A stretch of DNA of 64,000 nucleotides, from contig NZ_CP041616.1 in the NCBI RefSeq assembly GCF_007197575.1, positions 1,488,001-1,552,000 on the forward strand, read 5' to 3'. Shown one piece after another: positions 34,943 to 48,337 of the stretch. This stretch comes from Ornithinimicrobium ciconiae (GTDB lineage Bacteria; Actinomycetota; Actinomycetes; Actinomycetales; Dermatophilaceae). Position 1 is the first letter of the stretch, and every line of letters begins with the position of its first letter. A program made the translations under genes and the position numbers. A model generated the notes under the pieces. The model was not told the origin of the DNA and did no database searches. It saw nothing but the letters and a program-made list of their open reading frames with translations.

Positions 34943-36295
34943 TCAGAGCATCGAGCCGAGGTCTGATCCGACCGTGGGGTAGGCGGCGGTCACGGACTTG
35001 AGCTGACGGGTGGTCAGATCGAGTTTCATCGCGAGACCGAGGACGTTGATCAGTTCGGCGTAGTCGGGGCCGAGCAGGTGCGCGCCGACGATCCGGTCGG
35101 TAGTGCGGTCGATGAGGATCTTGGCCGCGGCGGTCGTCTCCCCGATGCGGTAGTTGGAGTACCAGCTGCTCGTGTCGTGGTGGCGGACCTCGAGGTCGAT
35201 GCCCTGGTCGCGGGCCTCTTGTTCGAGCATCCCGACCCGGGCGAGTTCGGGGATCGTGAACACCGCGGTCGGGACGCCTGTGTAGTCGGGTGCCTTCGTG
35301 GTGGCGTTGAGCATGTTGGACGCGGCGACCTTGCCCTCGATCACGGCGACCGGGGTCAGCGGCATCCCCGGGGTGTCGGCTGAGTCTCCGGCGGCGTATA
35401 CGGCCGGGTTGGTGGTGCTCTGCAGGTGGGGCGCGACGTGCACCCCGTGCTCGTCCCACGCGACGCCGGCCGAGTCCAGGTCCAAGCTGGTCAGCTCGGG
35501 CGTCCGGCCGGCGCCGTGCACGATCAGGTCGAACACCATCGTCTCGGTGCGGCCGGATCGGTCCACGGTGACCTGGTAGCCGGCCTCGGACTTCTCGATC
35601 GAGGTGATGGTGGTGGAGCGCAGCAGCTCGATCCCGGAGGCGGCGCCACGGGCGATGAGGAGGTGGACGAGGTCGGGGTCGAACGCCTTGAGGGGGCGGG
35701 GCCCGCGGTCGATGATGGTCGGGGCGCTACCGGCCCGGGCCGCGATGTGGGCGAACTCGAAGGAGACGAAGCCGCCGCCGACGAACAGGATCCGCTGCGG
35801 GAGCTCGGGCAGCTGCAGGAAGTCGGTGCTGTCGACCAGGTGCTGGTCGCCCGGGAAGCCCAGCGTGCGCGGGCGGGCGCCGGTGGCGATCAGGAAGTGT
35901 CTCGCCGTGTGGTGGGCGTCCTCGATCTCGAGGTTGTTCTTGCCGGTGAACCGGGCCGGACCGTGCAGGGTGTCGACGCCGTTGGCCCTGAGGGTGTCCT
36001 CCATACGTGCTGGGACCGGGTCGGTGAAGCCGTGCTTGTGTTTCATCAGGTCCGCCCAGCTGATCGCCAGGCCGTCGCTGGTGATGCCCTTGCCGCGCAT
36101 CAGCCGGGCGCTGTCGATGATCTCGGCGCCGCGGCGCAGGATCTTCTTCGGGTCGCACCCGCGTAACGCGCACGTGCCCCCGTAGGGCAGCGCGTCGACG
36201 ATGCCGACGCTCCAGCCCCGCGACGCGCACATGTTGGCCGCCGCGACCCCGGCCATGCCGGCGCCGATCACGATCAGGTCGTAGCTGCGGCTCAT
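34943..36295 (-). CDS. Mercuric-reductase-like FAD/NAD(P) disulfide oxidoreductase
   Basis: The 450-residue flavoprotein begins with the FAD motif VIGAGMAGVAAANM. The redox pair is in GGTCALRGCDPKK (Cys-x4-Cys) instead of the common GGTCLNVGCIPSK. A second Rossmann motif VGGGFVSFEFAHIA binds NAD(P)H, and the second FAD contact is YAAGDSADT. The C-terminal His-Glu pair of glutathione reductases is absent (AAYPTVGSDL), so it probably reduces something other than a small disulfide through a base. Its ATG overlaps the stop of the thioredoxin-like gene (TAATG). The pair is driven by a MerR-type promoter. Confidence 0.85.
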   Translation of the reverse strand: MSRSYDLIVIGAGMAGVAAANMCASRGWSVGIVDALPYGGTCALRGCDPKKILRRGAEIIDSARLMRGKGITSDGLAISWADLMKHKHGFTDPVPARMEDTLRANGVDTLHGPARFTGKNNLEIEDAHHTARHFLIATGARPRTLGFPGDQHLVDSTDFLQLPELPQRILFVGGGFVSFEFAHIAARAGSAPTIIDRGPRPLKAFDPDLVHLLIARGAASGIELLRSTTITSIEKSEAGYQVTVDRSGRTETMVFDLIVHGAGRTPELTSLDLDSAGVAWDEHGVHVAPHLQSTTNPAVYAAGDSADTPGMPLTPVAVIEGKVAASNMLNATTKAPDYTGVPTAVFTIPELARVGMLEQEARDQGIDLEVRHHDTSSWYSNYRIGETTAAAKILIDRTTDRIVGAHLLGPDYAELINVLGLAMKLDLTTRQLKSVTAAYPTVGSDLGSML

Positions 36296-36606
36296 TAGTT
36301 GTCCTTCTGCGCCACGCCGAGAACGACCCGAAGCTGCTCCAGCGTGGGCGCCCCGGCCAAGCCGTCCCGGGTGCGGTAGACCCGGCACGAGAGCCCGACC
36401 CCGGCGTTCGGTTCGGCGAAGGCATCGACTCCGTCGACCAGGATGCTGGGCGAGCCGAGGAAACCGAGCCGTTCGGCCTCCTCCGGGGTCTCGACCCGGC
36501 GACGCTTCACGACGACGTCCGCGTGGTCGGCGGCGATCGCGGCAAGGCGTTGATCGATGAGCGCCCAGTTCGGGCAGTCGTCGAAGTACAACAGCGTGAT
36601 GTCCAT
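36295..36606 (-). CDS. Small thioredoxin-fold protein
   Basis: ATG 36606 gives 103 residues. The start DITLLYFDDCPNW places one cysteine where thioredoxins have CxxC, and the segment FLGSPSILVDGVDAF contains the cis-proline loop. A second cysteine is in VGLSCRVY. Small proteins of this type occur in mercury and arsenic resistance operons and may feed electrons from the flavoprotein encoded directly downstream. The specific partner is unknown. Confidence 0.78.
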   Translation of the reverse strand: MDITLLYFDDCPNWALIDQRLAAIAADHADVVVKRRRVETPEEAERLGFLGSPSILVDGVDAFAEPNAGVGLSCRVYRTRDGLAGAPTLEQLRVVLGVAQKDN

Positions 36607-36614
36607 GAGACCGA

Positions 36615-36645
36615 CCGTAAACGTTGTACCGGGGTGCAATGTCAA
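36615..36645 (-). promoter_or_regulatory. MerR-type promoter with long spacer and dyad
   Basis: On the minus strand TTGACA (36645-36640) and the -10-like TACGGT are separated by 20 bp, longer than normal. A near-perfect dyad TTGCACC-CC-GGTACAA (36639-36624) fills the spacer. This is the design of mer-like promoters, where a MerR protein twists the DNA to align the boxes. It drives the thioredoxin-like and flavoprotein genes. The adjacent merR gene is broken. Confidence 0.72.
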
Positions 36646-36661
36646 ACGGAAGGACGAAGAG

Positions 36662-36893
36662 GTGCTGATCGGAGAGCTTGCTGACGCGGCCGGGCTGTAC
36701 GGCCAGACCATTCGCTTCTACGAGCGCAAGCGCCTCCTGCCCAGCCCCAAGCGGGGCGCCAACGGCTACCGGAACTACGACGAGTCCAGCGCCCTTGCCC
36801 TCCAGCGAGCGGCGCATCCGCTACACCCGCGCCCGCGCGGGCGAACGCGCCGCCGTCGAAGCCCGACGCCTCAACCTCGGGGCAATCTGAGGA
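36662..36893 (+). pseudogene. Truncated MerR-family regulator
   Basis: GTG 36662 begins a good MerR N-terminus (LIGELADAAGLYGQTIRFYERKRLLPSP...NGYRNYD), the winged-helix DNA-binding half. After about residue 46 the similarity breaks. A frame-shifted piece (RIRYTRARAGE) resembles the next helix, and the effector domain with metal-binding cysteines is missing. The rest of the frame to about 37060 looks non-coding and runs into the 3' end of arsA. Confidence 0.72.
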
Positions 36894-36964
36894 CTCCCTC
36901 CAGCACAGCGACATCGACGGACGCAGCCTCAAGGGGCTCGGTTCCCGACGTTCACAGGTGCGAG

Positions 36965-38731
36965 CTACACCGGGACCACCTGTCCGGTAACGATCGATCC
37001 GAGCCGTTCCACGCCCACCGGCTCATCCGACAACAGGGGAACGACCGCGACCCGGTCTGACAGGGACTCGACGCGGGCGACCTGGTCGACCTCGTTCTGT
37101 GCGCGAACCTGCAAGAACGGGGATTCTGGTCGTGCGGCGAGCAGCGAGTTGTTGATGACCCACGCCCAAGGATGAATTCCGGCGCGTTCGAGATCTTGCT
37201 GGAGGACCTCGGCCTCAGTGACCGGCGTGGGTTCGGCGAGGGTGATGAGCAGGACTTTGGTCTGGGTGGGGTCCTGGAGTCGCATCAGGGGGGTGGTGTA
37301 AGCCATCGCATCTCCCATCTGCCGTGCGACGTCGCGGTGGTAGGACCCGGCCGCGTCCAGCAGGAGCAGAGTGTGACCGGTGGGTGCGGTGTCGATGACT
37401 ACGAACTCGCGCCGTGACTCGTGCACAGCTTTGGAGAACTGTTGGAAGACCGCGACTTCCTCGGTGCACGGTGAGAGCAGGTCTTCGGCGAGGTTGCGGC
37501 GCCCGGCCTCGTCGAGGTTCTTGCCCTTGGTAGCCAGGACCCGGTCGCGGTACTCCCTGGTCGCCTCTAGTGGGTCGATGCGGGAAACCCGTAGACCGGT
37601 GACGGAGCCGTGCAGGGTCTCCTCCAGGTGGGCCGCGGGGTCGGTCGTGGTCAGGTGTACGGGGTGGCCTCGGTGAGCGAGTTCGACGGCGATGGCTGCG
37701 GCGATGGTGGTCTTCCCGACTCCGCCCTTGCCCATGCACAGGACCAGGCCGTGCTCGCCCTTCTCGATCTCGTCGACCAGCGCTGCCAACGGCCCCGGGA
37801 GCGTGACTTCCAGGGCTGCAGCGCCCGCGTCCTCGGACGCATCAACCGTGTCGTTGCTCAACAGGGACCTCAGCGCGGGCAGGCCGACCATGTTGGTCGG
37901 CCGGAGGCCGATCACGTCTCGGGTCAGTGTCGCGACACCGGCCGGCATCGCGGTGAGTGCCGCGGTCTCGCGGGCTCGGACGGCGGCGGCGAGTGCCTCG
38001 TCTCCGGCTTCGGGCGGCAGGACGCCGTTGATGACCACGTGGGTGGCGTGGATGCCGATCTCGCCGAGTTCGTCGTTGGTCCGCTCGATCTCCTTCAACG
38101 AGGATGTCTGCGCGCGGGCGACCAGGACCAGACGGGTGCGGGTCGGGTCCTTGAGGGCTTCGACTGCGGCGGCGTAGGTCGAGCGTTGCTTGTCCAGGCC
38201 GGCCAGCGGACCCAGGCAGGAGGCGTCACCCTTGCCGGACTGGAGGAAGTCGGTCCAGGAGCCGGGGAGCTGGAGCAGGCGGACGGTGTGGCCGGTGGGT
38301 GCGGTGTCGAACAGGACATGGTCGTAGCCGCCGTAGACGGCCGGGTCGGCGAGGAAGGCGGTGAACTCGTTGAAGGAGGCGACCTCGGTGGTGCAGGACC
38401 CGGAGAGCTGCTCGGTGATGGAGGCCAGTTCCTTGTCCGGTAGGAGTCCTCGCACGGGGCCGACGATCCGTTCCCGATAGGCCTCGGCTGCCTGTTCCGG
38501 ATCGATCTCCAACGCCGACAGTCCCGGAACGCCTTCGATCGCCGTGATGGTGTTGCCGATCACGACATCGAAGACCTGGCCGACGTTTGACGCCGGATCT
38601 GTGCTGACCAACAGGACCCGTTTGCCCTGCCCGGCCAGCGTGACGGCCGTGGCGCAGGCGACCGAGGTCTTCCCGACACCACCCTTGCCGGTGAAGAACA
38701 GGAATTGGGGAGCGTCCTGAAGGAACTGCAT
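36965..38731 (-). CDS. arsA: Arsenite-transporting ATPase ArsA
   Basis: The 588-residue protein has two homologous halves, each with GKGGVGKT (near residues 16 and 335) and the DTAPTGHT signature. The three cysteines that bind As(III) are present, in SGSCTTEV, CLGPL and LSPCTEEV. ArsA uses ATP to drive arsenite through ArsB, after receiving it from ArsD. The ATG at 38731 lies beside the stop of the arsM::arsD fusion, so the two are co-translated. The only ArsB in the window is encoded on the other strand 10 kb away (46901-48337). Confidence 0.94.
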   Translation of the reverse strand: MQFLQDAPQFLFFTGKGGVGKTSVACATAVTLAGQGKRVLLVSTDPASNVGQVFDVVIGNTITAIEGVPGLSALEIDPEQAAEAYRERIVGPVRGLLPDKELASITEQLSGSCTTEVASFNEFTAFLADPAVYGGYDHVLFDTAPTGHTVRLLQLPGSWTDFLQSGKGDASCLGPLAGLDKQRSTYAAAVEALKDPTRTRLVLVARAQTSSLKEIERTNDELGEIGIHATHVVINGVLPPEAGDEALAAAVRARETAALTAMPAGVATLTRDVIGLRPTNMVGLPALRSLLSNDTVDASEDAGAAALEVTLPGPLAALVDEIEKGEHGLVLCMGKGGVGKTTIAAAIAVELAHRGHPVHLTTTDPAAHLEETLHGSVTGLRVSRIDPLEATREYRDRVLATKGKNLDEAGRRNLAEDLLSPCTEEVAVFQQFSKAVHESRREFVVIDTAPTGHTLLLLDAAGSYHRDVARQMGDAMAYTTPLMRLQDPTQTKVLLITLAEPTPVTEAEVLQQDLERAGIHPWAWVINNSLLAARPESPFLQVRAQNEVDQVARVESLSDRVAVVPLLSDEPVGVERLGSIVTGQVVPV

Positions 38732-38733
38732 GA

Positions 38734-39987
38734 TCAGCAGCAACCCGTCGAGCCACAGCCGGTGCTCTCCGCGACGGTGAGCTCGATCGCTCCCGCCGGA
38801 ACGACGGGCGCCTGGGTCAGGCCGGTGTAGCGGAGCAGTTGGTCCCGGGTGGGGTAGGTGCCGGTCAGGACGGTGACCCCGTCGACGGTCGTCAGCGGTA
38901 GCCCCTCGGAACCAGCGACTTCGAGGAAACCGCGGACCGACTCATCCGCGGCGAAGGCGAGGGGATCGTTGGCCAGGTTGTGTCGAGCGATGTCGGCGCC
39001 CTGCTCGGTCAGGTGGTTGAGGTCGGCGCTGAACTCGACGAGCCGTTGGTCGACATCCTCACCACAGACTCCGGTGTTGCAGCACAGTGCCGGTTCGTAG
39101 ACGCGGACGCTGTGCACGTGGATCTCCCGAGATTCGGTCGCGGGGCGGGTGGCGAGTGTGCCGGGCTTGGTCCCACGCAGGGAAGCGCTGCGGATCACGC
39201 CGTCGAAGTCCGCGACAAGCGATCCGAGGTCACCGACTCCAGCCAGATCCTCTGAGCTGAGACCGGAGGCGAGTCCTTCAAGCTCACTGCGCCCGAAGAC
39301 GTTCGTCGGTTCGATGCTCACCTGCTCGAAACCGGCGGCTTCCATCAGCTTGATGGCCTCCTCCTCGACGAGAGCGCCGGTGATGCAGCCGGTCCACAGC
39401 GCCATCACCGCGGTGAGTTCCGGGGTCAGTGGCCGGGACAAGACCACATCGGAGATCGCGAGCCGTCCGCCGGGGCGTAGGACCCGGAATGCTTCTCGGA
39501 AGACCTGGCCCTTGTCGACGGACAGGTTGACCACGCAGTTGGAGATGATCACGTCGACCGAGTCGTCGGGGAGTGGGATGTCCTCGATGGTCCCGAGCAG
39601 GAACTCGACGTTCTCGACCCCGGCCTTGGCCTTGTTGGCGTTGGCGAGTTCGAGCATTTCAGGTGTCATGTCCAGGCCGTAGGCCATGCCGTCGGGGGCC
39701 ACCCGGCGTGCGGAGAGCAGCACGTCGATGCCGCCTCCCGAGCCCAGGTCCAGCACCACGTCGCCTGGCTTGAGAGCAGCCAGCAGCGTCGGGTTTCCGC
39801 AGCCCAGTGATGCCGTGACGGCCTCGTGGGGCAGCGAGGTCCGATCGGAGTCGTCGTACTGGGATTGTCCGAAGGGGTCAGTGTCGGAGCAGGCGGCCGG
39901 ACCGCAGCAGGACGACACGTTGCGTGCCGCGTCGGCGTACCGTTCCTGGACGGCGCTGCGGATGTCTTCCGCTTGATTCATGGGCAT
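38734..39987 (-). CDS. ArsM-ArsD fusion: arsenite methyltransferase with metallochaperone domain
   Basis: ATG 39987 behind GAGGAG gives 417 residues. Residues 1 to about 275 are an ArsM SAM methyltransferase: [13 protein letters not shown] binds SAM, and the three catalytic cysteines appear in [15 protein letters not shown] and WTGCITGAL. Residues from about 290 are a complete Ars[20 protein letters not shown] matches the CC-x4-C arsenite site, and the end [10 protein letters not shown] matches the terminal cysteine pairs. ArsD normally hands As(III) to ArsA, encoded next. The fusion could pass arsenite to either methylation or efflux. Confidence 0.93.
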
Positions 39988-39997
39988 GATCGGCTCC

Positions 39998-40318
39998 TCA
40001 GTCGGTGGGGCAGTTGGTGGTGCCGGCCAGGGTGGACAGCAGGGCGATCGGTTCGGCGACGGCGTCGCAGCACAGGGCGTAGACGTTGGAGCGACCGACC
40101 GGCGTCGCGATGACCAGGCCGTTCTCGCGCAGGCTCTTGAGGTGATGGCTCACCAGGGTCTGTCCGAGTCCCGTGGTCGCGACCAGCTCGGTGACCGTCG
40201 ACTCCTGGTCCGCGACCGCGAGCAGGATCATCAGCCGGTTCTCATCCGAGAGAGCCTTGAGGACCGGAGCGATCTGTCGGGCTCGGTCAGCCGGAGTGGT
40301 GCGGGTTCGAGTCGCCAT
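39998..40318 (-). CDS. arsR: ArsR-family repressor
   Basis: The 106-residue winged-helix protein has the ArsR core LKALSDENRLMILL and recognition helix TLVSHHLKSLRENGL. Candidate As(III) ligands are Cys83-Cys84 and Cys103 at the C-terminus, not the CVC motif of the E. coli type. The gene heads the arsR - arsM::arsD - arsA operon, 10 bp before the fusion gene. Its promoter and operator lie directly upstream, and the ATG appears to be at the transcription start. Confidence 0.93.
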   Translation of the reverse strand: MATRTRTTPADRARQIAPVLKALSDENRLMILLAVADQESTVTELVATTGLGQTLVSHHLKSLRENGLVIATPVGRSNVYALCCDAVAEPIALLSTLAGTTNCPTD

Positions 40319-40574: not shown

Positions 40575-41237
40575 TCAGAGCGGCTGGCGGCGGGCGGCCT
40601 GCGGGACGCCGAGCTCATCCAAGAGCTTGAGGACTCGCTGCTCGATCTCGTCGCGGATGGGTCGTACCGAGGCGATGTCCTGCCCGGCCGGATCATCGAG
40701 GGCCCACTCCTCATACTTCTTGCCGGGGAAGATCGGGCAGGCGTCGCCACAGCCCATGGTGATGACGGCGTCGGCGGCCTGGACGACCTCGTCGGTCCAC
40801 GGTTTGGGGAACTCCCCGGAGATGTCGATGCCCTTCTCGGCCATCGCGGCGACTGCGACCTTGTTGATCTCGGTGCCGGGTTCCGACCCGCCCGACCAGG
40901 CGATCGCCTGGTCCGCGGCGTGGTGGGTGAAGAAGCCGAGGGCCATCTGTGAGCGGCCGGCGTTGTGAACGCACAGGAACAGCACCACCGGATTGGTGTC
41001 GGTGACATGTCCCTCGATCCGCGCCAGCGCCTGAAGGCGCTGGCGGGCGAACCGCTCGGCCAGCAACGGCAAGAAGTTGGGGATCGTTGACTTGTCGGCG
41101 AACTCATCGAAGGAGGAGTTCAGAAACCGCTCGATCGTCTCGGTGTTGAAGGCGGTCGAGAACTCCTCGGCCAGTCGTGACGCGGACCTCTTGAGGGCGA
41201 GCTGCTGGTCAAGGGAGATGGTCGGGTTCGTGCTCAT
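40575..41237 (-). CDS. arsC: Arsenate reductase with N-terminal three-helix bundle (mycothiol-type ArsC)
   Basis: The 220-residue protein has an N-terminal helical domain (about 10-75, with ERFLNSSFDEFA and FLPLLAERFARQRL). A low-molecular-weight phosphatase fold follows, with P-loop CVHNAGRS at Cys89-Arg95 and the segment MGCGDACPIFPGKKYEEW. This is the actinobacterial ArsC class that joins arsenate to mycothiol. It follows the arsR::arsC fusion gene by 27 bp on the same strand. Confidence 0.93.
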   Translation of the reverse strand: MSTNPTISLDQQLALKRSASRLAEEFSTAFNTETIERFLNSSFDEFADKSTIPNFLPLLAERFARQRLQALARIEGHVTDTNPVVLFLCVHNAGRSQMALGFFTHHAADQAIAWSGGSEPGTEINKVAVAAMAEKGIDISGEFPKPWTDEVVQAADAVITMGCGDACPIFPGKKYEEWALDDPAGQDIASVRPIRDEIEQRVLKLLDELGVPQAARRQPL

Positions 41238-41264: not shown

Positions 41265-41936
41265 TCAGGATGCGAGGCGAGGGGCGAGGGCGAGTACGCG
41301 ACTCTCGATCTGCTCATAGGCGGCGTCAAACGCGGCACCGGTGCCGACCCGCACTGGATCGGGGATCGACCAGTGCAACTCGTGAGACACGCCTAGCTCC
41401 TCGTGCGCCAGGTCGCACACCGTGATCACCAGGTCGCCCTCGCCGACCACGTCCGCCAGTGCGCGCGGTCGCAGGCGTGGAAGCGGCAACCCGCGGCGGC
41501 CGGCCACCTCGATCGCGCCCGGATCGATCCGGGCGGCCGGGTGCGTGCCCGCCGAGGTCGAGGGCACATCACTGGCCTGTCGCCACAGGGCGGCAGCCAG
41601 ATGGGACCGCGCGGAGTTGGCCGTACACACGAACACCACCCGCGGCGGTGGCGGCACGGCCGCCTGAGGAGCGACGCTCAGGGTGTGCTCGACCAGGCGC
41701 AGGTACTGCCGGCGCCCATCGCCCTGGGATCGGTGACTGGAGACCAGGCCCACCTCGCGCAGAACCTTGAGGTGGTGCGCCAGGAGATTCGACGGCATCC
41801 CCAGGGCCTCGGCCAGCTCCGAGGGCGCGGCATCCCCGGTGGTGAGGATGTCCACGATGCGCAGACGCGCCGGATCGCCCAACGCGGCATAGATGGCAGC
41901 CCGCCGATCAAGAGATCCATCAGACTCAAAGTTCAT
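41265..41936 (-). CDS. ArsR-ArsC fusion: HTH regulator with phosphatase-type arsenate reductase domain
   Basis: Of 223 residues, about 10-90 form an ArsR winged helix (IYAALGDPARLRIVDIL, MPSNLLAHHLKVLREVGLV). About 97-220 form a low-molecular-weight phosphatase domain with P-loop CTANSARS and the later VITVCDLAHEEL. The HTH part contains no cysteine, so it cannot sense arsenite like standard ArsR, and sensing may involve the enzymatic domain. It is divergent from the flavoprotein at 42053 and heads the unit with arsC downstream. A TTGAC-rich region with TTGA-N10-TCAA lies just before the ATG. Confidence 0.9.
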   Translation of the reverse strand: MNFESDGSLDRRAAIYAALGDPARLRIVDILTTGDAAPSELAEALGMPSNLLAHHLKVLREVGLVSSHRSQGDGRRQYLRLVEHTLSVAPQAAVPPPPRVVFVCTANSARSHLAAALWRQASDVPSTSAGTHPAARIDPGAIEVAGRRGLPLPRLRPRALADVVGEGDLVITVCDLAHEELGVSHELHWSIPDPVRVGTGAAFDAAYEQIESRVLALAPRLAS

Positions 41937-42052: not shown

Positions 42053-43462
42053 ATGAGACTCATCGCCATTGGCGGCAGTGACGCAGGCATCTCCGCTGCT
42101 CTGCGTGCGCGAGAGCTCGACCCGTCGGTCGAGGTCACCGTTGTCGTCGCCGACGCCTATCCCAACTTCTCGATCTGCGGGATCCCGTATTACATCTCCG
42201 GGGAGGTCACCCACTGGCGCAACCTGGCCCACCGCACCCACGCCGATCTCGAAGCCACCGGGATGAAGTTGCGCCTCGACACTTGGGCGTCCTCGATCGA
42301 CGTCGGTGGGCAACGCCTCGCGGTCCGTAACCCCGATGGCAGCAGCGACTTCCTGGAGTACGGCGAGCTGATCGTTGGCACCGGTGCCGTCCCGGTCCGC
42401 CCGCCCATTGAGGGACTCGACTCCCTGGACGCGGTCGACGGGGTGCACCTGCTGCACTCGATGGGCGACACCTTCGCCCTCACCGAATCCCTGGACCGGA
42501 TCCAGCCCAAGAGGGCGCTCATCGTCGGGGCCGGCTACGTCGGCCTGGAGATGGCCGAAGGTCTCACGATGCGCGGGATCGAGGTCATCCAGGTCGAGAT
42601 GCTCCCCGAAGTCCTCCACACCGTCGAGGTCGAGCTCGGCGCTCTGGTTCACGACGAGCTCGTCAAGAACGGCGTCGACGTCCACACCAACTCCACCGTC
42701 ACCAAGATCAGCAAGACCGCCACTGGTTTGCACGTCGACGGCGCCACCACCGACGGCGAGACGCTCGCCTGGGACGTCGACCTCGTCCTCGTAGTCGTGG
42801 GAGTTCGGCCCGACACTGAGCTCCTCGTCGAGGCAGGCGCCAAGACTGGCCCACGGGGCGCTGTGCTCGTCGACGAGACCATGTCCACTGGGCTCCCGCA
42901 TGTCTGGGCCGCTGGCGACTGTGTCGTCACGCATCACCGCCTGCTCGGCACCACGTACCTGCCGCTGGGCACCACCGCCCACAAGCAGGGCCGCGTCGCC
43001 GGGGAGAACGCGCTCGGCGGATCGGTGAGGTACTCCGGATCCCTCGGCACCCAGGTCGTGAAGGTCTTCGACCTCGTCGCTGCCCGCACAGGCTTGCGCG
43101 ACCACGAAGCGTTCGCGGCAGGCTTCGCCCCGATCAGCACCACGGCCACCCCCGACGACCACAAGGCCTACTACCCGGGCGCGACGCCGATCTCCATCCG
43201 CATCACCGGCGACGCGAACACCGGCCGACTGCTCGGCGCACAGCTCATCGGCACCCGCGGAGCCGAGATCTCCAAGCGGGTCGACACCTATGCCACCGCG
43301 CTGTTCCACGAGATGACCGTCTCCGCGATGACCGAGCTCGACCTCTCCTACACCCCACCCCTGGGCTCACCCTGGGACGCCGTCCAGATGGCCACCCAAG
43401 CATGGGTCAAGGAACACCAGCTCGACACCGAACGCGCCACCATCCAGAAGGACAACCGATGA
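42053..43462 (+). CDS. CoA-disulfide-reductase/NADH-oxidase-like flavoprotein
   Basis: The 469-residue protein starts behind AAGGACGAG. It has the FAD start IAIGGSDAGISAALRARE and a single redox cysteine (Cys42) in SICGIPYYISG, the arrangement of coenzyme A-disulfide reductases and NADH oxidases. The NAD motif is VGAGYVGLEMAEG and the second FAD motif is VWAAGDCV. It overlaps the next gene by 4 bp (ATGA), so its product probably works with the ArsC-like protein encoded there, perhaps recycling thiols. The substrate is not proven. Confidence 0.87.
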   Translation: MRLIAIGGSDAGISAALRARELDPSVEVTVVVADAYPNFSICGIPYYISGEVTHWRNLAHRTHADLEATGMKLRLDTWASSIDVGGQRLAVRNPDGSSDFLEYGELIVGTGAVPVRPPIEGLDSLDAVDGVHLLHSMGDTFALTESLDRIQPKRALIVGAGYVGLEMAEGLTMRGIEVIQVEMLPEVLHTVEVELGALVHDELVKNGVDVHTNSTVTKISKTATGLHVDGATTDGETLAWDVDLVLVVVGVRPDTELLVEAGAKTGPRGAVLVDETMSTGLPHVWAAGDCVVTHHRLLGTTYLPLGTTAHKQGRVAGENALGGSVRYSGSLGTQVVKVFDLVAARTGLRDHEAFAAGFAPISTTATPDDHKAYYPGATPISIRITGDANTGRLLGAQLIGTRGAEISKRVDTYATALFHEMTVSAMTELDLSYTPPLGSPWDAVQMATQAWVKEHQLDTERATIQKDNR

Positions 43463-43920
43463 CCAAGCCGACCCTGCTCTTCATCTGCACGCACAACGCC
43501 GGCCGCTCCGCCCTCGGCGCCGCGCTCGCACGAGAACAGGCCGGCGACCGAGCCGTCGTGCTCTCCGCAGGCATCGACCCGGCCGAGACCGCAAGCGCCG
43601 GCACCATCGCCAGCCTCGCGGAGATCGGCATTGACGACTCCGCATACATTCCGACCAAAGTGACCGAAGAGCTCGTTCGCAACGCGACCGTCGTGATCTC
43701 GATGAAGCCCGGCCTGGACGTCCCGCAGATCGAGGGGATCTCTTATGAGACCTGGGACCTGCCGAACCCGGACGGCTGGGACGTGGAGGCCATCCGCCCG
43801 CTCCGAGACCATATCGACGGACGGGTCGCCGACCTGGGTTTAAACGGAAGCCCCGCGCCTACTCCGGGAGGTCTGAGACTGGCCCATCACCTGATCGCGC
43901 GTCCCCACATCCGCCACTGA
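43459..43920 (+). CDS. Low-molecular-weight phosphatase family ArsC-like protein
   Basis: The 153-residue protein has P-loop CTHNAGRS at residues 10-17. Instead of the MGCGDACP segment of the other ArsCs here it has SMKPGLDVPQIEG followed by YETWDLPNPDGWD. After DGRVADL the last 30 residues (Pro/Gly then His/Arg-rich) do not look like the family and begin at a GTTTAAAC stretch unusual for this GC content. The C-terminus may have been replaced by recombination. It is coupled to the flavoprotein gene. Confidence 0.82.
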   Translation: MTKPTLLFICTHNAGRSALGAALAREQAGDRAVVLSAGIDPAETASAGTIASLAEIGIDDSAYIPTKVTEELVRNATVVISMKPGLDVPQIEGISYETWDLPNPDGWDVEAIRPLRDHIDGRVADLGLNGSPAPTPGGLRLAHHLIARPHIRH

Positions 43921-46900: not shown

Positions 46901-48337
46901 ATGCTGCTCGCCGTCATCATCTTCCTTGCCACCCTCGTGCTGGTGATCTGGCAGCCCAAGGGCCTGGGCATTGGATGGAGCGCCCTGGGTGGCGCGGTTG
47001 TTGCTCTGCTTGCCGGGGTGGTTCATCTCGCAGACATCCCCGTCGTGTGGGACATCGTGTGGAACGCCACCCTCACCTTCGTCGCGGTCATCATCATCTG
47101 CTCGATCCTCGATGAGGCTGGGTTCTTTGAGTGGGCCGCGCTTCACGTGGCGCGCTGGGCGCGGGGTAACGGCAGTGCCCTGTTCAACCTGATCGTCGTT
47201 CTGGGTGCAGCAATCGCTGCACTCTTCGCCAACGACGGCGCCGCCCTGACCCTGACGCCCATCGTTTTCGGGATGATCGTGGGGTTGAAGTTCGAACCGA
47301 AAGTCGCTTTTGGCCTCGTCATCGCCACTGGGTTTATCGCCGACACCGCGAGCTTGCCGTTCGTCGTTTCCAACCTGGTCAACATCGTGGTCGCTGACTT
47401 CTTCGACATCGGCTTTGCGCGTTATGCGTTAGTGATGGTGCCCGTCGCACTGGTTTCTCTGGCCGCGAGCCTGGCTGTGCTGCGGATCTTCTTCCGCAAG
47501 TCCATCCCAGGCTCGTATGACGTGTCAGCTTTGCCGCGCCCCAGAGCGGCAGTGACGGACCCGATGACCTTCCGCGCTGGCGTGGTCGTCCTGGTTGTCC
47601 TGCTCGGCGGCTACTTCGCAACGGACGCCATCGGAGTGCCCGTTGCCGCTGTCGCCGTGCTGTGCGCGCTGGTCCTCGCCCTCATCGCGGCGCGCCAACC
47701 ACACGCACTCTTTCGCCGTCTGTCCGGCGTCGAGCGCGCCACGGACGTGAACGAGGGTCTGGTTGCGGCCCAGGCCACCGGAGGCGCTCCGCTGACCGTA
47801 GGGGCAGATCCTGCCAGGACGACGGTAATCCCTGCTGCTCAGCCCCAGATTGCAGTGTGGTCGGTGGTGAAGTCTGCGCCGTGGCAGATCGTGGTGTTCA
47901 GCCTGGGCATGTATCTCGTCGTGTACGGCCTCCGGAGCGAAGGTCTGACCGACCATCTGGGCCAGCTACTCGCGAACCTTGCCCAGCACGGAGATCTGGC
48001 CACCGCGACGGGCACCGGGTTCCTCGTGGCAGGGATGTCCTCGGTCATGAACAATATGCCGACGACCCTGATCGCCGCCCTTGGCATTGAGGCCTCCGGC
48101 GCCACCGGGCTGACGGGACAGATGATGGCCTACGCCGCCGTGATCGGTGCCGACCTCGGCCCCAAGATCACACCGATCGGCTCCCTAGCGACCTTGCTGT
48201 GGCTGTCGGTACTAGACCGCAAGGGCATGCACATCGGGTGGGGCACCTACTTCAAGGTCGGGATCGTCCTGACCATCCCCGTCCTCGCCGTGACGCTGCT
48301 TGCCCTGGCTCTCTGGCTCACCATCCTCGGCCCGTGA
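46901..48337 (+). CDS. arsB: Arsenite efflux permease ArsB
   Basis: ATG 46901 follows GAGGAGGA and gives 478 residues; the longer open frame upstream is not membrane-like. About eleven or twelve membrane helices are visible. Family segments of the ArsB/NhaD permeases include [48 protein letters not shown] and [20 protein letters not shown]. It extrudes As(III), alone by proton exchange or with ArsA. ArsA is encoded in a separate operon on the opposite strand. Confidence 0.94.

Follow-up and report, generated by a model that had tools for sequence, protein, structure and literature searches.

An in-frame ArsM–ArsD fusion with a putative internal arsD start beside arsA in Ornithinimicrobium ciconiae

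The arsMD gene and its surroundings

The gene arsMD belongs to Ornithinimicrobium ciconiae, whose genome is a single contig of 4.09 Mb that is 99.99% complete, and lies in a stretch of 64,000 nucleotides (NZ_CP041616.1, positions 1,488,001 to 1,552,000), hereafter the window. Reading of the open frame shows a single uninterrupted chain of 417 amino acids from ATG to TGA, with no internal stop (Table 1). Its N-terminal half matches the arsenite methyltransferase model NF008823 at residues 4–275 (304 bits against a cut-off of 263, covering model positions 2–268 of 272), while the C-terminal half matches the ArsD model NF033727 at residues 293–387 (114 bits, cut-off 90) and PF06953 at residues 293–417 (126 bits, above the cut-off). 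The earlier note had described a full ArsM with its three cysteine motifs, followed in frame by a full ArsD with CC-x4-C and a terminal Cys-Cys, and these matches, together with the cysteine alignments given below, bear that description out.

In phmmer alignments to solved structures, from which the positions were counted, Cys63, Cys151 and Cys201 fall at positions 72, 174 and 224 in the chains of algal ArsM (4kw7 and 4fr0), and the available sections of PMC3877260 name the same positions of CmArsM as As(III)-binding residues. The CC-x4-C site of the ArsD half, Cys302-Cys303-x4-Cys308, aligns with positions 12, 13 and 18 of ArsD 3mwh, where the cysteines bind As(III) and are needed, according to the accessible text of PMC12607644 and PMC4562236. 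The chain ends in GCGSTGCC, so that the final cysteine pair is present and is preceded by one further cysteine; Cys411, Cys416 and Cys417 are the only cysteines after Cys308. ArsD has two vicinal pairs in this region (112-113 and 119-120), and the three cysteines of arsMD do not make up both. In the part of PMC4562236 at hand, the C-terminal pairs are tied to repression and the three N-terminal cysteines to the chaperone role.

In an AlphaFold model built with 47 rows, both the ArsM and the ArsD domain are confident, with pLDDT below 50 in the linker at residues 279–287 and a pTM of 0.65. Values under 50 also occur at residues 27–29, around the N-terminal cysteine pair, and at the final three residues. 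The model looks as expected for two domains on a flexible tether.

Table 1. Positions of arsMD, its parts and the neighbouring genes in the window
Feature	Positions	Strand	Basis
arsA, arsenical pump-driving ATPase	36965..38731	-	TIGR04291 821 bits; ATG 2 nt past the arsMD stop (TGA)
arsMD, ArsM-ArsD fusion gene	38734..39987	-	417 aa plus stop
ArsD half, residues 291-417	38737..39117	-	PF06953/NF033727, 3mwh alignment
GTG (Val291), putative internal start codon for free ArsD	39115..39117	-	sequence
Linker, residues 276-290; residues 279-287 pLDDT below 50	39118..39162	-	AlphaFold
CGGGAG, putative Shine-Dalgarno for internal arsD start	39124..39129	-	6-nt spacer
ArsM half, residues 1-275; As ligands Cys63, Cys151, Cys201; N-terminal Cys27-Cys28	39163..39987	-	NF008823, alignment to solved ArsM chains
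arsR, ArsR/SmtB regulator, upstream of arsMD	39998..40318	-	profile matches
ArsC-like LMW phosphatase fold, N-terminal three-helix domain	40575..41237	-	under the cut-offs of ArsC models
ArsR-ArsC-like fusion (HTH_5 plus LMWPc)	41265..41936	-	profile matches
FAD-dependent disulfide reductase, nearest CoA-disulfide reductase, under its cut-off	42053..43462	+	profile matches
Second ArsC-like LMW phosphatase fold	43402..43920	+	profile match
arsB, arsenite efflux permease	46901..48337	+	PF02040 473 bits; ORF opens 46697, likely ATG 46901 judged by eye

ArsD is a chaperone for the ArsA pump, and arsA lies directly downstream of arsMD, as the earlier note had it. Since both arsA and arsB are found by arsMD, a full ArsAB pump is encoded here. 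A search of the O. ciconiae genome found one ArsD, that of arsMD; because this sole ArsD adjoins arsA and arsB, it must be the one that serves ArsA, if any does. Acr3 is present elsewhere in the genome, and no ArsP was found in it. Given the arsR upstream, arsR-arsMD-arsA would form a unit under arsenite regulation. The ArsR-ArsC-like gene is a second fusion in the cluster, of a kind already published.

Several other genes flank the cluster on the arsA side. A frame at 36557-37060 (+) encodes a MerR-family regulator with a good helix-turn-helix start (PF00376) that turns Arg/Pro-rich after about residue 84, which, on inspection by eye, suggests a frameshift or truncation. It adjoins a MerA/glutathione-reductase-like gene (34943-36289), which shows about 75% DNA identity to genes on plasmids of Mycobacterium marinum and Mycobacteroides. 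Between this gene and the broken merR sits an ORF at 36295-36711 (-) resembling DF-family (seleno)proteins (NF049942, 66.6 bits against a cut-off of 70, with the match beginning at residue 38).

A putative internal start for arsD

At the junction of linker and ArsD half, the window reads CGGGAG-ATCCAC-GTG, i.e., a putative ribosome-binding site followed by a possible start codon in the frame of the fusion. An ATG or GTG placed exactly seven codons before EPALCC, after GGAG or AGGA with a spacer of 5–6 nt, is found in six of the seven distinct fusions described below. As a background, a Shine–Dalgarno core (counted when it stood before ATG or GTG with a spacer of 4–9 nt) occurs at 16 of 246 other internal ATG/GTG codons, comprising 6/128 in nine neighbouring genes of the window and 10/118 in the fusions; this background excludes every TTG and, in the six locus ORFs, the codons upstream of about −285, which are true arsM starts. 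The Fisher test of 6/6 start codons at this place (L204, which has none, being left out) against 16/246 gives p 2e-7, a value that is descriptive only, because the fusions of the window, L032, L033 and L034 are related and the place was picked after looking. A start-like codon with a Shine–Dalgarno sequence also stands at the same place in five other ArsD frames (L165, L197, L199, L201 and L203), and L206 has a start-like codon at −18. By anti-Shine–Dalgarno energy alone, the GTG of the window is third of 18 in-frame starts, and the L202 site is also third.

The linkers of the fusions grouping with the window are 9, 15 or 16 codons long and always in frame. In L204 the linker is shorter, CAA takes the place of the start codon and a Shine–Dalgarno core is missing; as the ArsD of this locus is intact, the chaperone there seems to be made only as part of the fusion. 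Since arsD of the window appears to retain its Shine–Dalgarno sequence and start codon within the fused frame, free ArsD is probably produced, and arsMD would then yield both ArsM-ArsD and free ArsD, with the internal start in use. It would represent a case of an in-frame fusion keeping an internal start. The earlier note, whose domains, motifs and arsA all stood, had overlooked this site, as it had the occurrence of the fusion with at least three ArsM lineages.

Distribution and lineages of the fusion

The seven distinct fusions are those of the window and of the loci numbered L034, L032, L033, L204, L202 and L037. A search across genomes found the two-domain architecture to be rare: four of 79 loci are fused in a scan of genome contigs covering the best 80 of 334 relatives (L032, L033, L034 and L037), and six of 63 loci in ArsD surveys, among the matches listed, with three of these six coming from the same genomes as L032, L033 and L034. 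The surveys took best matches only, at most 30 from each, and comprised 77 loci, of which 14 were dropped for want of an ArsD by phmmer. At the other 57 of the 63, the flanks of about 1.5 kb contain no ArsM, and a separate neighbouring ArsM was found beside ArsD at none of the 63, within 1.5-kb flanks some of which were ended by the contig edge. In three further loci, from the genome scan, both genes are present but apart: they diverge at L056, lie about 1 kb from each other on one strand at L078, and are separated by about 6 kb at L084. ArsD-positive genomes number 40/396 in the window's order, 10/394 in its class, 30/396 in its phylum and 16/166 in the order of genome G1017. The last order holds five of the fusions, namely G1017 itself (a 480-codon frame, equal to L034), G1193 and G1195 (equal to L032 and L033), L202 and L204. 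Among 31 genomes of the genus, O. ciconiae alone has a full-length match to the fusion, and G416 has an ArsD-like stretch alone. Matches were found in 2137 plasmid records, none of which spans 80% of the fusion at a single place.

Some candidates were set aside. Five ArsM relatives on viral contigs have matches that end by residue 234, none reaching into the ArsD half. At L035, L044 and L054, the match runs past residue 300, but the ORF ends in ArsM, the extension being due to chance or, in L054, to a short Cys-rich tail. This Gemmatimonadetes ArsM (L054:2255-3373, +) ends in EGACCAPGCCT, and an acetyltransferase-like (ArsN-like) frame was seen by eye just downstream. ArsD proteins with a long C-terminal extension bearing NCEPCxKxH are present at L170, L171, L173 and L056, and in a degenerate form at L176; the extension resembles AhpD-type proteins, so that these may represent a different type of ArsD fusion.

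All seven fusions have the As-ligand cysteines of both halves without exception, and arsA starts within 12 nt of the fusion TGA in each; arsR is directly upstream in the window, L034, L032 and L033. The nearest unfused ArsM proteins, L035 and L036, are of similar length and form arsR-arsM pairs, with no ArsD or ArsA matches in the locus. Two loci carry remnants: L067 (Nocardioides zhouii) has an ArsM tail followed by ArsD, and L205, in the order of G1017, retains the beginning of ArsM, including its Cys pair, followed by the linker and ArsD. The L205 relic (L205:1501-2190, -) is in frame, with about 30 N-terminal ArsM residues left and the methyltransferase core gone; at L210 it still stands between arsR and arsA. 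As L067 and L205 lost most of ArsM and kept ArsD, methylation is dispensable there.

Placing all seven fusions in one ArsD clade was rejected (p-AU 1e-7, with L067, L205, L199, L206 and rows under 80 bits removed). For ArsM, a single clade of six fusions (L202 left out) was weakly rejected (p 0.043), and holding L202 with the window group was rejected at p 1.5e-4, both with the unfused L035 and L036 removed. The rejection of one clade for all seven (ArsD) or six (ArsM) fusions is due mostly to L037, whose ArsD pairs with a separate Mycobacterium ArsD (100/96); without L037, one clade is not rejected (ArsD p 0.15; ArsM p 0.62). The ArsM of L202 sits on a distant branch, where its nearest row is L096 at 55% identity, and the row nearest to its ArsD is the separate L203 (96/90). 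The ArsD tests differ on L202, with p 0.15 in one tree and 0.033 when L202 is added to the window group plus remnants. The window group with both remnants as one ArsD clade is not rejected (p 0.36), nor is L202 with L204 as an ArsD pair (p 0.45). L204 is not separable from the window group (ArsM p 0.62; ArsD p 0.43) and hence is not counted as a further lineage. The supports 100/96 and 96/90 and the values 0.36, 0.033 and 0.45 come from one careful tree, as do the two discarded ArsD values given next (6e-64 and 0.003), and the other tests come from quick trees.

Three results were discarded as affected by nested rows. The ArsD one-clade test at p 6e-64 was inflated, as the remnants L067 and L205 nest among the fusions, and the same rows inflated the test of the window, L034, L032, L033 and L204 as a clade (p 0.003); in the first ArsM test (p 7e-4), the unfused L035 and L036 were nested among the fusions. 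The claim of three lineages rests on the repeats without nested rows (ArsD 1e-7; ArsM 0.043 and 1.5e-4). Judging by these trees, three ArsM lineages are found joined to ArsD. Because the trees separate them, the fusion is probably not one inherited accident: either three or more separate joinings took place, or there were fewer and the ArsM half was exchanged later, and a single joining followed by such exchange may have taken place.

Possible working of arsMD and comparison with known systems

The reading that we favour, and hold with fair but not full confidence, is that arsMD is a true fusion within an arsR-arsMD-arsA unit and that its product acts as a bifunctional hub for As(III), either supplying ArsA/ArsB or carrying out methylation. 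When begun at the arsM start, translation would yield a chain of two domains, in which a flexible linker of about 15 residues connects an As(III) S-adenosylmethionine methyltransferase to an As(III) metallochaperone; the retained internal start would give free ArsD too. The ArsD half would take As(III) on Cys302, Cys303 and Cys308 and hand it to ArsA for ArsB-driven export. The tether would put the methylating site (Cys63, Cys151 and Cys201) at the same hub, so that As(III) not exported at once might be methylated by the ArsM half. The fused protein would have to accumulate, and either As(III) would move between the halves or ArsA would dock on the fused form. That a single chain routes As(III) between methylation and ArsA is plausible and agrees with the repeated joining; moreover, the same joining in relatives with different versions of ArsM suggests that export and methylation work better when coupled.

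The main rival is operon coupling without a functional fusion: the arsM stop would have been lost, arsD would be translated mostly from its own start, and the joined protein would be a tolerated by-product. The Shine–Dalgarno sequence and start kept in six of the seven fusions agree with it, as do L067 and L205, where ArsD outlasted most of ArsM. Nevertheless, three ArsM lineages are joined, a separate arsM directly before arsD was not seen in the loci examined, and L204 has neither internal start nor Shine–Dalgarno sequence, and we regard this explanation as unlikely. Less probable still is that ArsD now works solely as the As(III)-loading domain of ArsM, where long ArsM proteins have their extra C-terminal domain, and no longer serves ArsA. 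The fused ArsM is indeed short, its match to algal ArsM chains of 377–383 amino acids stopping at their position 248, and NCBIfam contains ArsM fused to AhpD and DUF2284 domains; against this, arsA is the next gene in all seven fusions, the O. ciconiae genome holds no other ArsD, and unfused ArsM of similar length exist (L035 and L036). An assembly or sequencing error concealing a stop or start between residues 275 and 290, which the earlier note had raised, is very improbable even though six of the seven fusions, L204 included, come from assemblies that include metagenome ones, because the genome is one contig, the same architecture recurs in six other assemblies at distinct loci, and the linkers of relatives stay in frame.

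Returning to the As(III) hub, a broader version of it can be put forward tentatively, namely that ArsM and ArsD are natural physical partners and that in these actinobacteria ArsD is a switchable hub delivering to ArsA/ArsB or to the tethered methyltransferase, with fusion and free ArsD setting the balance of export and methylation. If true, the repeated joining would count as evidence that ArsD hands As(III) over to ArsM, perhaps also between separate proteins elsewhere. No account of As(III) delivery to ArsM was met in the accessible portion of the literature searched. The joining across ArsM lineages hints directly, and in a way open to testing, at a channelling of metalloid that links export with methylation, and seven natural fusion variants are at hand for such tests.

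The earlier note knew the two proteins as separate and took the fused form to be undescribed, and no ArsM-ArsD fusion was found in the literature searched, which lay mostly outside subscription papers and preprints and was available in part. Fusions published for ars genes comprise ArsR-ArsC, Acr3-ArsC, aquaglyceroporin-ArsC, ArsN-ArsD and ArsN-ArsC (PMC6205960). Like arsMD, these unite two resistance functions per chain, and ArsD already appears as a partner of ArsN, but in the available text of that paper none links a methyltransferase to a chaperone. According to the accessible sections of PMC6514093, arsM is generally rare in Actinobacteria, in which ArsR-ArsC and Acr3-ArsC fusions have been shown, and those of PMC2963123 describe the association of ArsD with ArsA, without an ArsM-ArsD fusion. 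The ArsM-AhpD (NF041537) and ArsM-DUF2284 selenoprotein (NF041536) families likewise add a domain to ArsM; however, this domain is not ArsD, and arsMD falls far under their cut-offs (182 of 510 and 155 of 575 bits, respectively).

With bacterial ArsM (NF008823; solved relatives 4kw7, 4fr0 and 5evj) arsMD shares the full domain, the three As-ligand cysteines and the short bacterial length, but adds a complete ArsD behind a flexible linker. With ArsD (NF033727, PF06953; 3mwh and 3kgk) it shares CC-x4-C, the terminal Cys pair and the adjacent arsA, whereas its ArsD lies C-terminal to ArsM, has three C-terminal cysteines rather than two pairs, and has its start codon inside the frame. The domains and their chemistry are known; what appears to be new is how they are put together, that this arrangement occurs with several ArsM lineages, and that the internal start has been kept.
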